Positions 40,995 to 46,602 of a stretch of DNA of 64,000 nt are shown here, piece after piece. Positions within the stretch are counted from its first letter, which is position 1. Each line of letters begins with the position of its first letter. The notes beneath the pieces were generated by a model. It ran no database searches and was not told the DNA's origin. It was given only the letters and a program-made list of their open reading frames with translations. This DNA is from Chamaelirium japonicum (Eukaryota > Streptophyta > Magnoliopsida > Liliales > Melanthiaceae): positions 80,633,415-80,697,414 of the forward strand of contig OX393549.1 of NCBI GenBank assembly GCA_947650365.1, read 5' to 3'. The position numbers were made by a program, and so were the translations under genes.

Positions 40995-41062
40995 CATTCA
41001 AATGGTGAACTCGAATGGAGAAGATGTCACGTGTCCTAAGAAAGGCAACAATTGCGACTGGG
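40995..41062 (+). repeat. Inverted-repeat arm (left) next to (TA)n
   Basis: This arm is the reverse complement of 43876-43945 with few mismatches (shared CATTCAAATGGTGAACTCGA and CAACAATTGCGACTGG). Each arm's inner end abuts a (TA)n array. The pair brackets 2.8 kb of other elements. Confidence 0.85.
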
Positions 41063-41255
41063 TATATATATATATATATATATATATATATATATATATA
41101 TATATATATATATATATATATATATATATATATATATATATATATATATATATATATATATATATATATATATATATATATATATATATATATATATATA
41201 TATATATATATATATATATATATATATATATATATATATATATATATATATATAT
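41063..41255. repeat. (TA)n microsatellite
   Basis: About 193 bp of uninterrupted TA dinucleotides. All Ile-Tyr repeat frames here are artefacts. Confidence 0.98.
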
Positions 41256-41634
41256 GAGAAACAAGATGCTACCTTTGAAAATAACATTATTCGCTACTTT
41301 GATAGGTCACCGATGGCTATCAAAGCCTTGAACGATGACAAAGATCATTCGAACTCATAAGCGGGAGGTGCTAGAAGTCATCGGAGGTGGTTGTCGGGTG
41401 CAGATGTCCTTGGAGGTCACCGGATGAGATGGGGTGATGAATGGACGGCTCACAATAGAAGTAGTCACCAAAGTCCTCTATCGATGGAAGCCGATAGGTG
41501 GTGTCAGCGGAGATCACTGGTGGAGGTGATCAGAGGTTGTTTATGTTGATTCTGATCGGAGATCACATGTCGCGCTGCCATGGTGGGTTGTCAAAGCAGC
41601 AAAAACGCTGCTTTGAGAGGTAGTGTCCTGGCCC
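41256..41634. mobile_element. Probable degraded TA-flanked element
   Basis: This segment lies between two (TA)n arrays, like the foldback elements, and has a similar length (379 bp). Its right end has a short hairpin (GTCAAAGCAGC-AAAAAC-GCTGCTTTGAG, about 41588-41617) recalling the arm of the 61124-61523 element. The left end (CTACCTTTGAAAATAAC) matches the right end only weakly. The inside is not palindromic. Confidence 0.4.
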
Positions 41635-41788
41635 TATATATATATATATATATATATATATATATATATATATATATATATATATATATATATATATATA
41701 TATATATATATATATATATATATATATATATATATATATATATATATATATATATATATATATATATATATATATATATATATATATA
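41635..41788. repeat. (TA)n microsatellite
   Basis: About 154 bp of TA dinucleotides between the degraded element and foldback element 1. Confidence 0.98.
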
Positions 41789-42187
41789 GGGGGCAGGGAG
41801 CCTGCACTCGAGGTGCAGCAACAACGCTGCACCTTGGCCTTGTTTTACCTACCTAGAAGTTTTGGAATTGGATGAAATTTGGTGAGGGTGTTATCTAGGG
41901 TAAGGTGATCATCCTCACAAATTTTTATCAAATTTCAAAACTTCTAGGGGGTCAAATGGTCGAAGCAAAATCTGCAGATTTTAACGGTGACTGCGGACGG
42001 CTGATTTTGCTTCGACCATTTGACCCCCCTAGAAGTTTTGGAATTTGATAAAAATTTGTGAGGATGATCACCTTACCCTAGACAACACCCTCACCAAATT
42101 TCATCCAATTCTAAAACTTCTAGCTAGGTAAAACAAGGCCGAGGTGCAGCGTTGTTGTTGCACCTCGGGTGCAGGTTCCCCGCCCCC
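41789..42187. mobile_element. Foldback element 1 (399 bp, full-length palindrome) within (TA)n
   Basis: The element starts GGGGGCAGGGAGCCTGCAC and ends with its near complement GTGCAGGTTCCCCGCCCCC. The two halves are inverted repeats around a centre near 41988. Each half also folds on itself (CTAGAAGTTTTGGAATT pairs with AATTTCAAAACTTCTAG), so the structure is a palindrome of palindromes. It is flanked on both sides by (TA)n, with no other target duplication visible. It resembles Micron-type MITEs of rice, which sit in TA microsatellites, but I cannot claim sequence homology. It has no coding capacity. Confidence 0.85.
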
Positions 42188-42208
42188 ATATATATATATA
42201 TATATATA
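42188..42208. repeat. (TA)n microsatellite
   Basis: Short TA array separating foldback elements 1 and 2. Confidence 0.95.
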
Positions 42209-42579
42209 GAGTAGTGATACATTGCGGCGGGTAACATGCGGGCTTAACGTGCGGCGACCCCCTTTGGGGGTATTTTTGGGATTTTTTTTTTTTGGGGATT
42301 GATCACCCACCCTTGGATTGGACACACAAAAAATTTCAGCCCGATCCAAGACTTGTAGGCCGTCCAAATGTGTTGATCTTTTATCGGTCGTTCAATTTTT
42401 TCGCCATTTTGATCAACACATTTGGACGGCCTATAGGTCTTGGATCGGGCTGAATTTTTTTGTGTGTCCAATCCAAGGGTGGGTGATCAATCCCCAAAAA
42501 AATAAAATCCCGAAAATACCCCCGAAGGGGGTGCCGCACGTTAAGCCCGCATGTTACCCGCCGCAATGTATCACTACTC
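42209..42579. mobile_element. Foldback element 2 (371 bp) within (TA)n
   Basis: It starts GAGTAGTGATACATTGCGGC and ends GCCGCAATGTATCACTACTC, perfect terminal complements. The inverted repeat extends over the whole element to a centre near 42393 (ATCGGTCGTTCAATTTTTTC). Its core differs from elements 1, 3, 4, 6 and 7. It is flanked on both sides by (TA)n. Confidence 0.88.
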
Positions 42580-43363
42580 TATATATATATATATGCATGT
42601 ATATATATAAAACATAACACGTCAGTTTTGTGCTGACTAGACAAAACGGAAGCTGACTATGACAAGTTGATTGAACTAAAATGAACCGAATAGATCTAAC
42701 CACATTCAAAAATCAACGAACGATCTCTATTTCCCCGTCAACCAACACCCTCTCATTGGTTTCAAATCCCGACCCACTTAAACTGCACTAAACCCCTAAA
42801 ATCCTGGCCCATTTAAACTGCATTAAACCCGACCGTTCATCCCGTCATCGTTGTTCACATGAACGGCTATAAACTCGCTTGTTGAAATTTCAGTCGTCCC
42901 AAACCATCGGATCGATCCCAAGGAATCCGTTCGAATAAAGACAGCTGTGATTGATCGATTATAGGGGGAGGGGGAGTTGGTCGCGTCGAAAGCGCTCGCT
43001 TCGTGCCAATTGACACAGGTGTGAAAATATAGTTGTCGTCGAAAGTGTTTTGTTGCCAAAGGCGTTCAGGTATTTGCCAACGAAGGCGGCCCGCTGCAGT
43101 GCCGAAAAATGTGTTGCCATCTATATGATTGATCGATTATAGGGGGAGGGGGAGTTGGTCGTGCCGAAAGCGCCCGCTTCGTGCCAATCGGCACGGGCGT
43201 GGAAATGGGTGTCCCTATGAATACCGGTGGTGTCGTCGAAAGTATTTTATTGCTGAAGGCATTTAGGTGGGTTGCCGCCGAAGGCGGTCCGCTGCAGTGC
43301 TGACCGTTGTGTTGCCGCCGAAGACGGCCCACTGTAGTGCCGATAGGCACGGGCATGCACTAG
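42580..43363 (+). mobile_element. Candidate non-autonomous Helitron (3' end defined)
   Basis: The right end shows the Helitron signature: a short hairpin GTGCC-GATA-GGCAC (43337-43350), nine bases, then CTAG (43360-43363) followed by T of a TA-rich target. Inside, a 178-bp tandem duplication starts with GATTGATCGATTATAGGGG at 42949 and 43127, and a second hairpin of similar sequence lies near 43176-43191. I could not fix the 5' TC terminus; the left edge given is the (TA)n border. There is no Rep/helicase coding. Confidence 0.5.
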
Positions 43364-44798: not shown

Positions 44799-44895
44799 TA
44801 TATATATATATATATATATATATATATATATATATATATATATATATATATATATATATATATATATATATATATATATATATATATATATATAT
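44799..44895. repeat. (TA)n microsatellite
   Basis: About 97 bp of TA dinucleotides left of foldback element 4. Confidence 0.98.
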
Positions 44896-45251
44896 GTCTG
44901 ATTGGTTGCGTTGTGAGCTGCCGGGGGAGAAAATGAGCTTCAATTGATTTGACCCCCTTAGAAGTTTTGGAATTTAATATGATCATCCTCACAATTTTCA
45001 TCAAATTCCAAAACTTCTAGGGTCATCAAATGGTAGAAGAAAAATATGTCGATTTAACGGTGACTACGGACGACAGATTTTGCTTCTACCATTTGATGAC
45101 CCTAGAAGATTTGGAATTTGATGAAAATTGATGAGGATGATCATCTTACCCTAGACAACACCCTCACCAAATTTTATCAAATTTCAAAACTTCTAGGGAG
45201 GTCTAAATACCCGCATCTCAATTTTTGAAATGGCACCTCACAGCTCATTGT
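44896..45251. mobile_element. Foldback element 4
   Basis: Arms (GTTGTGAGCTGCCGG... / ...GGCACCTCACAGCTCATTG) are of the element 3/6 type. The core has CTTAGAAGTTTTGGAATTT and AACACCCTCACCAAATTTT. The left half lacks the GGTGAGGGTGTTGTCTAGGG segment present in the right half, an internal deletion. The left side abuts (TA)n; the right side runs into another palindrome. Confidence 0.78.
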
Positions 45252-45534
45252 GAACATAATCATCTTGTCTTAGATAACACATCTATAAAAAATCAGCACA
45301 TTCTAAACCCTCTAGGCTTGTCAAATATACTCTTCAAATTACCGATTAAAACGGACGGTCGACAAAGCCTTTTATATTTGATGTACTTAAAGGCTTTAGA
45401 ATGTGCTGATTTTTTATGAATGTCCTATCTAAGACTAGGTGATTATGCTTACAAAAAATCGACAAGTTCTGAAACCTCTATCCAATCATTTGAAAATCGA
45501 TGTAAAAAATTAAGTGCAAAAGTAGTGTCCCTTG
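45252..45534. mobile_element. Partial foldback of the element-5 subfamily
   Basis: An inverted repeat runs from about 45256 (TCTTAGATAACACATCTATAA) to about 45445, with AAAAAATCAGCACATTCTAAA pairing to TTTAGAATGTGCTGATTTTTT. Related sequence continues to a (TA)n array at 45535. It is related to but diverged from the element at 45638-46034. Confidence 0.65.
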
Positions 45535-45637
45535 TATATATATATATATATATATATATATATATATATATATATATATATATATATATATATATATATA
45601 TATATATATATATATATATATATATATATATATATAT
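45535..45637. repeat. (TA)n microsatellite
   Basis: About 103 bp of TA dinucleotides left of foldback element 5. Confidence 0.98.
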
Positions 45638-46034
45638 GGGTCAGGATCGGATGACCCAGCAAAATTTGACCCATTAATAACCCAGCACCCTTTGAGGCAC
45701 TTAGAGGTTATAGAATGGGCTGATTTTTTGTAGGGATGTTGTCTATGGCATGTTGATCATCCTCATAAAAAATCAGCCCATTCTAAAACCTCTAGGTGCA
45801 TCAAAGGGTGCTCTTCAAATCAACGATTAAAATTGACAGTGAAAAACCGTTGATTTGAAGTGCGCATTTGATGCACCTAGAGGTTTTTGAATGGGCTGAT
45901 TTTTTGTGAGGATGATTAACATACCATAGACAACATCCCTACAAAAAATCAGCCCATTCTATAACCTCTAAGTGCCTCAAAGGGTGCTGGGTTATTAATG
46001 GGTCAAATTTTGCTGGGTCATCCGATCCTGACCC
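45638..46034. mobile_element. Foldback element 5 (397 bp) within (TA)n
   Basis: It starts GGGTCAGGATCGGATGACCC and ends GGGTCATCCGATCCTGACCC, fully complementary ends, with an inverted repeat across the whole element. The core is a different subfamily (AGAATGGGCTGATTTTTTGT, CCTCTAGGTGCATCAAAGGG). However, it keeps the same internal module as elements 1/3/7: TGTTGTCTA, then TGATCATCCTCA. (TA)n lies on both sides. Confidence 0.88.
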
Positions 46035-46216
46035 TATATATATATATATATATATATATATATATATATATATATATATATATATATATATATATATATA
46101 TATATATATATATATATATATATATATATATATATATATATATATATATATATATATATATATATATATATATATATATATATATATATATATATATATA
46201 TATATATATATATATA
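46035..46216. repeat. (TA)n microsatellite
   Basis: About 182 bp of TA between foldback elements 5 and 6. Confidence 0.98.
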
Positions 46217-46602
46217 CAGAGAGAGAGAGAGAGAGGGCTGTTACAGTGAGTTGTGTGCTGCCGGGGGGGAAAGTGAGCTGCGGGTATTTTGACCCCCCAA
46301 GAAGTTATAGAATTTGATGAAATTAGGTGAGGTTGTTGCCTAGGATAAGATGATCCTCCTCACCAATTTTCATCAAACTCCAAAACTTCTAGAGGGGTCA
46401 AATGGTCGAAGCAATGTCACCGTTAAAATTGCTTCGACCATTTGAGACCCCTAGAAGTTTTGGAATTTGATGAAAATTGGTGATGATGATTATCTTATCC
46501 TAGGCAACAACTTTACCAAATTTCATCAAATTTTATAACATCTTGGGGGGTCAAAATACCCGCAGCTCACTTTCCCCCCCGGCAGCCCACAGCTCATTGT
46601 AA
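46217..46602. mobile_element. Foldback element 6 with (GA)n edge
   Basis: (GA)n at 46217-46236 leads into GGGCTGTTACAGTGAG; the other end reads GCTCATTGTAATCACG. Inner arms GAGCTGCGGGTATTTTGACC / GGTCAAAATACCCGCAGCTC are perfect complements. The core is of the element 1/3/7 type, but the central spacer is shortened to GCAATGTCACCGTTAAAATTGC. No (TA)n on the right. Confidence 0.82.

Follow-up and report, generated by a model that had tools for sequence, protein, structure and literature searches.

Foldback elements of several probable Mutator-like families in (TA)n tracts of Chamaelirium japonicum, with target duplications probably concealed in the repeat

Microsatellite-targeting foldback MULEs have already been published for Medicago, guayule, rice, sorghum, citrus and pineapple (PMC4486113, PMC5907723, PMC8449440; all comparisons refer to the accessible portions of these papers). 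Their insertion mechanism has been left open because a duplication of the target is invisible inside (TA)n. An earlier note on the DNA analysed here recognised no homology for its elements, and the novelty implied by this cannot be upheld. The elements share with MuTAnT of Medicago truncatula, a 292-bp foldback element in (TA)n, ends with GGGG/CCCC stretches, 9-bp target site duplications (TSDs) away from perfect TA and empty sites with fewer TA units, whereas MuTAnT is one family of 218 copies with an autonomous Jittery-like partner and many families are present here (PMC4486113). SaTar of guayule and rice likewise consists of several small non-autonomous MULE families, mostly flanked by microsatellites and often by (TA)n, and outside microsatellites the guayule TSDs measure 10 bp and the citrus ones 9 or 10 bp; microsatellite-joined arrays (non-nested in SaTar) and empty TA sites, found for SaTar between rice subspecies, are further common traits (PMC5907723). 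Compared by description, the two differ in that autonomous partners were found for SaTar and none here, and in that many SaTar flanks were judged inconsistent with a 10-bp duplication, leading to a recombination model, whereas the phase of each family reported below fits cut-and-paste (PMC5907723). Ac-mMITE of pineapple, with tens of thousands of elements, is similar in being located mostly at (TA)n and clustered, in its 9- or 10-bp TSDs off microsatellites and in terminal GA/TC runs that were credited to slippage after insertion; element lengths are different, and the accessible main text contains neither 'phase' nor 'parity' (PMC8449440). Micron of rice and TAFT of maize, compared by their descriptions in PMC5907723, PMC4486113 and PMC8449440, are also short elements in (TA)n, and TAFT resembles one locus studied here (L011) in having empty sites with 6-8 bp of TA that expand after insertion.

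The window, i.e. the entire stretch of 64,000 nt that was analysed, contains seven foldback elements of 357-401 bp. The cluster and its distant seventh member had been described in the earlier note, and an inverted-repeat search together with comparison of each element with its own reverse complement confirmed all of them at the positions first described (Table 1). Palindromic arms of 122-175 nt with 91-98% complementarity were found by the inverted-repeat search in elements 1, 2, 5 and 6, and four of the seven elements are 90-95% identical to their own reverse complement, the controls reaching at most 0.55 (ten shuffles per element) and 0.50-0.51 (two control stretches). The stretch fused to element 4 gave 0.40, which is below its own shuffles, and thus has no measurable palindrome. 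Pure TA tracts adjoining the elements comprise 96, 77, 10, 7, 36, 49, 51, 91, 136 and 57 units. Of elements 1, 2, 5 and 7, described earlier as having (TA)n on both sides, the first three have pure flanks; the left flank of element 7 carries an additional CACACACATAG. Flanks of elements 3 and 4 are mixed or one-sided. The TA-bounded repeat at the left of element 1 and the partial member near element 7 were absent from the first description.

Table 1. Coordinates of elements, TA tracts and associated repeats in the window (self-rc, identity to own reverse complement).
Feature	Position	Strand	Remarks
Half-copy ending at TA tract	40964..41062	-	inverted partner 43876-43960; inverted-repeat search
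TA-bounded non-palindromic repeat	41256..41634		second copy in L041 (248 bp at 92% identity)
(TA)77	41635..41788		from 41256-41634 repeat to element 1
Element 1, family 1	41789..42187		399-bp foldback; flanks A..A, odd phase; core common to 1, 3, 4, 6 and 7; self-rc 0.90
(TA)10	42188..42208		common to elements 1 and 2
Element 2, family 2	42209..42579		foldback of 371 bp; even phase (flanks A..T); TSD of family 10 bp; self-rc 0.91
(TA)7	42580..42594		right of element 2
Element 3	43376..43776		foldback; common core, ends unlike 1, 5 and 7; self-rc 0.80
(CT)14(TA)36 junction tract	43777..43875		right of element 3
Inverted half-copy of 40964-41062	43876..43960	+	across a TA tract; inverted-repeat search
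(AT)49	44798..44895		left of element 4
Element 4	44896..45252		decayed foldback, element-3 core; self-rc 0.64
Decayed stretch	45253..45534		fused directly to element 4, no TA intervening; short direct repeat in common with element 5
(TA)51	45535..45637		left of element 5
Element 5, family 5	45638..46034		foldback of 397 bp; odd phase (flanks T..T); TSD of family 9 bp; self-rc 0.93
(TA)91	46035..46216		elements 5 to 6
Element 6	46237..46606		foldback; element-3 core and ends; right side without TA; self-rc 0.89
Partial member of short TA-bounded family	60714..60840 (about)		terminus like GGGGAATGCTTAGGTGCGG, assigned by eye
(TA)136	60841..61112		left of element 7
Element 7, family 7	61124..61523		400-bp foldback; common core; family TSD 9 bp; self-rc 0.95
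(TA)57	61524..61638		right of element 7

For family 1, association with TA holds genome-wide. Exact ends of family 1 number 1,127, and 997 of these (88.5%) are directly adjoined by ten A/T bases, while the reversed end pattern, used as a control, gave 0. Among the first 100 family-1 ends listed, 13 lacked ten adjoining A/T bases (12 were examined, the thirteenth being L027), and on inspection only two of the 100, L084 and L092, lay away from a TA tract. At least six TA units were present at one end or more in all 30 loci retrieved by BLAST, and at both ends in 28. These results, along with the paralogous empty sites bearing (TA)n that are described below, support the targeting of TA repeats that had been suggested.

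A duplication of 9 or 10 bp can hide inside a TA tract, and the register of the TA flanks reveals whether its length is odd or even. The phase proved odd in 29 of 30 family-1 loci and in 14 of 14 further-listed end pairs (one pair is also among the 30), and again in 15 of the 16 classifiable copies among 20 sampled for family 7. Family 2 was even in 21 of 26 classifiable copies (30 sampled). The difference between families is highly significant (Fisher test, p ~2e-11, all odd family-2 copies included). Two of the five odd family-2 copies, L053 and L054, belong to a tandem array with 5-bp spacers, the GA runs of two more, L044 and L060, are broken, and neither explanation applies to the fifth, L059. 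Larger but less clean cluster counts gave the expected parity in 42 of 50 copies for family 1, 18 of 23 for family 7 and 38 of 45 for family 2; a 282-bp family was odd in only four of seven in this count. The family-5 sample (L136-L155) had been picked for G/C at position -3, so that its phase counts (7 of 17 odd) are biased and were not used.

Copies outside pure TA display the duplication directly. For family 2, an exact 10-bp duplication is present in L125 and in L099, L113 and L135, the latter three representing one insertion within a duplicated host repeat and not three events, and a 10-bp duplication judged by eye flanks L134. Exact 9-bp duplications were found for family 5 in L148 and in L136, which sits at a TA-tract edge, and for family 7 in L082. 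Scans of families 2, 5 and 7 outside pure TA yielded no exact duplication of a different length; of the 39 family-2 copies that carry G/C at -3, a partner end could not be recognised in 26, and nine lacked an exact TSD. No TSD was seen for family 1 outside TA, where L092 is without duplication and L084 has TA at its other side. For the ~145-bp family, a TSD of 10 bp had been forecast; L190 is one exact 10-bp case, six copies were uninformative, and L188, with an imperfect 9-bp duplication (8 of 9), goes against the forecast. The earlier statement that the elements lack any other target duplication is literally correct within (TA)n, but overlooks the 9- or 10-bp TSDs that phase and the copies off TA disclose.

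Empty sites carrying (TA)n without the element, which the earlier note had proposed to seek in related accessions, were found as paralogues within this genome for two host sites, L011 and L020, their (TA)n measuring 7-95 bp. Since these sites bear (TA)n, the TA target precedes insertion. Four empty paralogues of L011 have 7-11 bp of TA (the empty tract of L162 measures 7 bp), as opposed to 109 and 181 bp in the occupied copy, and flanks thus seem to grow after insertion. L011 is the one clear locus for such growth, as the empty L020 tracts already vary widely: 19 of the 20 L020 paralogues retrieved are empty with 8-95 bp of TA, and the twentieth, L178, contains two elements of the ~145-bp family within the same tract. 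For a family-2 insertion, seven empty places each contain a single TACTTTTCTA. Flank queries for L016 and L029 retrieved no empty site with both flanks, the L003 query found only itself besides an adjoining 56-bp partial match, and that for L014 mostly a high-copy repeat. GA runs occur at 30 of 53 A-side ends and at 0 of 20 T-side ends among the ends counted, and since they are limited to A-side ends they look junction-born and not like imported filler. Where elements with an odd TSD have ends starting with GA, one end reads AGAG and the other TGAG, and among the ends counted only AGAG ends became (GA)n. Neither of the alternatives proposed earlier, integration in TA repeats or seeding of them, is thus wholly right: (TA)n was present before insertion, and the tracts of L011 seem to have lengthened and (GA)n arose at the junction. 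We are inclined, with some reserve, to regard the TA register as a fossil of the hidden TSD with matching parity in each family, and AGAG and TGAG ends as a paired experiment on the birth of microsatellites.

A further TA-bounded foldback segment lies at most 1.5 kb away in 18 of 30 family-1 and 28 of 30 family-2 loci (46 of 60 together; L036, L053 and L054 overlap a single array). Each insertion leaves two TA tracts, and later insertions would therefore settle beside earlier ones.

A PF10551 profile search of the genome returned 1,214 MULE transposase candidates, including many intact genes, and 150 of 150 scored above the cut-off; the same search was positive in three of 14 control genomes. 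The autonomous relative with the same termini that the earlier note proposed to look for was not encountered: three MULE loci near listed copies (L156-L158) have no ends in common with the elements. MULE and FAR1 proteins of the window, compared by BLAST with open reading frames of the retrieved loci, matched only themselves. A FAR1-like SWIM protein is located at 62857-63885, near element 7. Since the search turned up no autonomous element carrying these ends, the superfamily assignment relies on the length of the TSDs, on long inverted repeats and on the abundance of MULE genes. With 9 and 10 bp, the TSDs fall within the 8-11 bp of Mutator elements. TA flanks, foldback structure, TSDs of 9-10 bp off the microsatellite (few copies), arrays and TA empty sites, all features of microsatellite-targeted non-autonomous MULEs, occur here.

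The reading that we prefer, with a probability of roughly 84%, is that several families of non-autonomous Mutator-like foldback transposons insert in (TA)n by ordinary staggered cuts, with a hidden TSD of 9 or 10 bp, later slippage and formation of arrays. A transposase acting in trans, whose source was not found here, would excise the elements, and these would be integrated through staggered cuts into (TA)n from about 9 bp upward. This would produce duplications of 9 bp (families 5 and 7, and family 1 as judged by phase) or 10 bp (family 2) that are invisible inside (TA)n. The duplicated TA copies may then lengthen by slippage, the terminal GA of the element may expand to (GA)m if an AGAG start is supplied by the flank, and the two TA tracts left by an insertion may receive new elements next to old ones.

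Circular intermediates with microsatellite filler that recombine homologously into genomic (TA)n, as proposed for SaTar (PMC5907723), would accommodate the mixed flanks seen here too, e.g. TA at one end and GA at the opposite end, which the SaTar authors considered hard to reconcile with cut-and-paste (PMC5907723). However, recombination does not lead one to expect that phase tracks the TSD length of the family, odd with 9 and even with 10; GA runs, confined to A-side ends among those counted, look junction-born, and an empty site with 7-11 bp of TA provides little homology. Our results speak against the circle-plus-recombination model for SaTars, and we deem it improbable for the elements studied here.

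The other explanations fare even worse. Phase of the type TA, element, TA in 38 of 45 family-2 copies and 15 of 17 copies of the ~145-bp family would suit MITEs of the Tc1/mariner type (Stowaway-like) whose TA target duplication is masked within TA repeats, yet families 2, 5 and 7 have TSDs of 9 or 10 bp outside pure TA and nearly every typed copy of families 1 and 7 has odd phase, which a 2-bp duplication cannot give; such an origin is very unlikely. Nor do we give much credence to TA tracts as parts of the elements that travel along without any targeting: although TA is found directly at the ends of nearly every copy, L082, L099, L125 and L148 stop off TA at the same terminal base, and the empty sites of L011 and L020 hold TA without the element. 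Long TA tracts pose difficulties for assembly, and contigs C1-C12 leave out about 28% of the assembled sequence, but repeats misjoined at TA tracts would not yield precise ends, regular phase and copies whose TA is short (L015, L018), and an assembly artefact is very unlikely. TA target duplication, element-carried tracts and assembly artefact were rejected on this evidence.

While elements of this kind are already known, the record of insertion, and of simple-repeat growth alongside it, is unusually clear here. Phase and the rare copies off TA make the mechanism testable in an assembled genome, at hundreds of sites together. If our reading of the TA register is true, the biochemistry of integration becomes readable at sites thought unreadable, and the parity rule would settle the question of the SaTar mechanism in favour of cut-and-paste. 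The unlike ends of elements with an odd TSD provide a controlled comparison for asking when a pair of repeat units initiates a microsatellite, and the elements may account for part of the origin of long TA tracts in such genomes.

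The seven foldback elements (357-401 bp) stand at the positions that the earlier note had claimed for them in the window (C1:80633415-80697414 of a 1.52-Gb assembly with 3,253 contigs). Identity of elements 1 to 7 to their own reverse complements was 0.90, 0.91, 0.80, 0.64, 0.93, 0.89 and 0.95, with all shuffles (10 per element) at or below 0.55 and two control stretches at 0.50-0.51. The tracts adjoining the elements are pure (TA)n of 7 to 136 units. Degenerate telomere repeats of the plant type lie at the start of the window. By eye, the SWIM protein encoded near element 7 appears similar to FAR1/Jittery-type proteins; the upstream part of its reading frame lies beyond the window. 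Ends like GCACGGGCATGCACTAG followed by T stand directly before TA tracts in the window and at loci L026, L066, L116 and L117. We take these ends to resemble Helitron 3' ends.

Coordinates of elements and neighbouring features (window positions unless a contig is named)
Position	Strand	Feature
1-946		TAAACCC telomere-like array, inverted relative to that at 4224-4754, flanking Mutator-like element (MULE)-like fragments
1-8120		Region with palindromes like TTACGCCATYTGAGATGGCGTAA close to the MULE-like fragments
1941-3370	minus	Putative MULE protein fragments, labelled by eye
4224-4754		GTTTAGG telomere-like array
41789-46606		Elements 1-6
42940-43372		End like GCACGGGCATGCACTAG followed by T, before TA tract
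53053-53154		TA tract without neighbouring foldback element
61124-61523		Element 7
62857-63885	minus	ORF of 342 aa with SWIM zinc finger (Pfam), 1.3 kb from element 7
C9:13849425-13850538		Tandem element-2 copies (L053, L054, L123)
C308:17035		L039, array in unplaced contig
C5:42555293		L040, array in chromosome

A first look at the genome gave 4,100, 1,959 and 1,670 candidates for elements 1, 2 and 7, totals that may mix families with a common core; 40 were scored per element, and the best match besides the query was 95-99% identical over nearly the full length. The exact 20-base end of family 1 (families being numbered after their elements) occurs 1,127 times (559 + 568; reversed control 0), and ten A/T bases precede it in 997 cases (88.5%). 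Thirteen of the first 100 ends listed lack the ten A/T bases. Twelve of these were inspected together with two others with imperfect TA, and 12 of the 14 still stand at a TA tract that is interrupted or separated from the end by a run of GA, G or CA, while no TA tract adjoins the ends at L084 and L092. The thirteenth end, L027, is also at a TA tract. At least six TA units were present at one end or more in all 30 family-1 BLAST loci and at both ends in 28. The fetched loci contain 198 distinct TA-bounded foldback segments, with 12 end families of at least three members.

The parity of the duplicated target length hidden in (TA)n can be read from the two bases that flank the element, one at each end, and because the elements are palindromic, this phase reading holds however the terminal bases are symmetrically assigned. 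Family 1 is in odd phase at 29 of 30 loci (L011 is ambiguous) and in all 14 copies with both ends listed, one of which is also among the 30 loci. Family 7 yielded 15 odd copies and one even among 20; two were untypable, one lacks the terminal G on both sides and one lies outside TA. Family 2 could be typed in 26 of 30 copies, five odd and 21 even, 19 of the latter in the register TA-element-TA. With decayed copies included and end clusters as the coarser unit of counting, odd phase was found for family 1 (42/50), family 7 (18/23), a 387-bp family (5/5) and a 282-bp family (4/7), and the TA-element-TA register for family 2 (38/45), a ~145-bp family (15/17) and a ~530-bp family (4/4).

Because it makes a duplication visible, a G or C at the third base beyond one end was the criterion for picking copies of family 2, family 5 and the ~145-bp family. 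An automatic scan of 39 family-2 copies found a single exact duplication length, 10 bp, in L125 and in L099, L113 and L135, which represent a single insertion, its host repeat being duplicated; the other end was unrecognisable in 26 copies and nine had no exact duplication. By eye, L134 shows an exact 10-bp repeat, and duplications at L132, L103 and L108 are near-exact or shifted. Exact 9-bp duplications were found for family 5 at L148 and at L136, the latter bordering a TA tract (20 of 64 matches sampled, the first 20 once GCT-fronted ones were dropped), and for family 7 at L082 (ATTCGGTTT; 20 BLAST copies). Taken with the phase data, 10 bp thus pairs with even phase and 9 bp with odd. For family 1, we infer the duplication length from phase alone. 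For the ~145-bp family, 10 bp had been forecast beforehand from its even phase; among eight of 46 matches (the first eight without G beside the end), L190 has exactly 10 bp, L188 an imperfect 9 bp and six are uninformative, which weakly supports the forecast.

Empty sites are found at paralogous places. The L099 insertion has seven with a single target and no element. At L020, 31 other places of the host repeat are listed, of which 20 with both flanks were fetched; three of the other 11 have the left flank only. No element occupies 19 of the 20, whose TA runs measure 8 to 95 bp (median 18). In the remaining one, L178, this same TA tract carries two members of the ~145-bp family, so that one TA site was struck by two families with different ends and a two-element array grew where other copies of the tract are empty. 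The family-1 copy at L011 stands between TA tracts of 109 bp and 181 bp. Of six further places listed, two have one flank only; the four fetched, three spanning both flanks entirely and one partly, are all empty, with TA runs of 9, 9, 11 and 7 bp. A 9-base TA empty site is exactly the size of a 9-bp duplication.

The ends of families 2 and 7 begin with GA, giving AGAG at the junction after a flanking A and TGAG after a flanking T. An element with an odd duplication has, when in TA, one end of each kind, and the two are therefore paired. Runs of at least three GA occur at 12/16 A-side and 0/16 T-side ends in family 7 and at 18/37 and 0/4 in family 2 (combined p ~2e-6). Counting was confined to ends where a TA tract could be recognised and one GA or more was present; ends whose GA had been lost were left out, as were those lacking clean TA by the run, for instance L044, L058 and L060, where a longer GA run is broken by T. 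Since those counted lie at A-side ends, the GA runs seem to be born at the junction. Similar growth of TA is indicated at L011, where the four empty copies might conceivably have contracted instead.

At 18/30 family-1 and 28/30 family-2 loci, a further foldback segment bounded by TA is found no more than 1.5 kb away. These loci are partly dependent: L036, L053 and L054 all overlap a single array, and the window itself accounts for L001 and L033. One array seems to have been copied in L039 and L040, whose flanks are identical over the compared stretches and whose TA/GA lengths differ; they are perhaps alternative haplotypes. The tandem element-2 copies on C9 are separated by 5-bp spacers (ATATA and similar) without TA tracts.

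An inner core is common to elements 1, 3, 4, 5, 6 and 7 (66-89% identity), with no match for pairs 4-5 and 5-6 in the pairwise comparison; element 2 is unrelated. Alignments of elements 1, 5 and 7 with other elements begin 50-120 bp inside the ends, and elements 3, 4 and 6 also have at least one end region in common. Over the outer 45 bp, five of the six pairs among elements 1, 3, 5 and 7 are at chance level (z between -0.7 and 0.7), and elements 1 and 7 are at most weakly related (z 2.5), as against z 9-23 for inner stretches. Some family-1 copies have two unlike ends: family-1-like L013, L030 and L083 carry GGGGGCGGGGAGCC.. and GGAAAAGGGATGCTGG.. or similar on one copy, as do neighbouring segments in L038, L051 and L062. 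Such copies suggest that termini were exchanged between palindromic arms. As judged from core identity, mostly chance-level similarity of the outer ends and copies with two unlike ends, one common core carries different ends.

Elements of the same kind, microsatellite-targeted non-autonomous MULEs, are already described in PMC5907723 (SaTar), PMC4486113 (MuTAnT) and PMC8449440 (Ac-mMITE). No autonomous element could be tied to the ends found here in the three MULE loci compared. The text consulted in the three papers, as well as the open-licence titles and abstract openings searched, contains no reading of duplication length from odd or even phase, and a term search of PMC8449440 returned neither 'phase' nor 'parity'. 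In PMC5907723, flanks were checked against a 10-bp duplication, many were inconsistent, and circles with homologous recombination were proposed. The register comparison is implicit there, and the conclusion is opposite to ours: taken per family, the phase data favour plain cut-and-paste.
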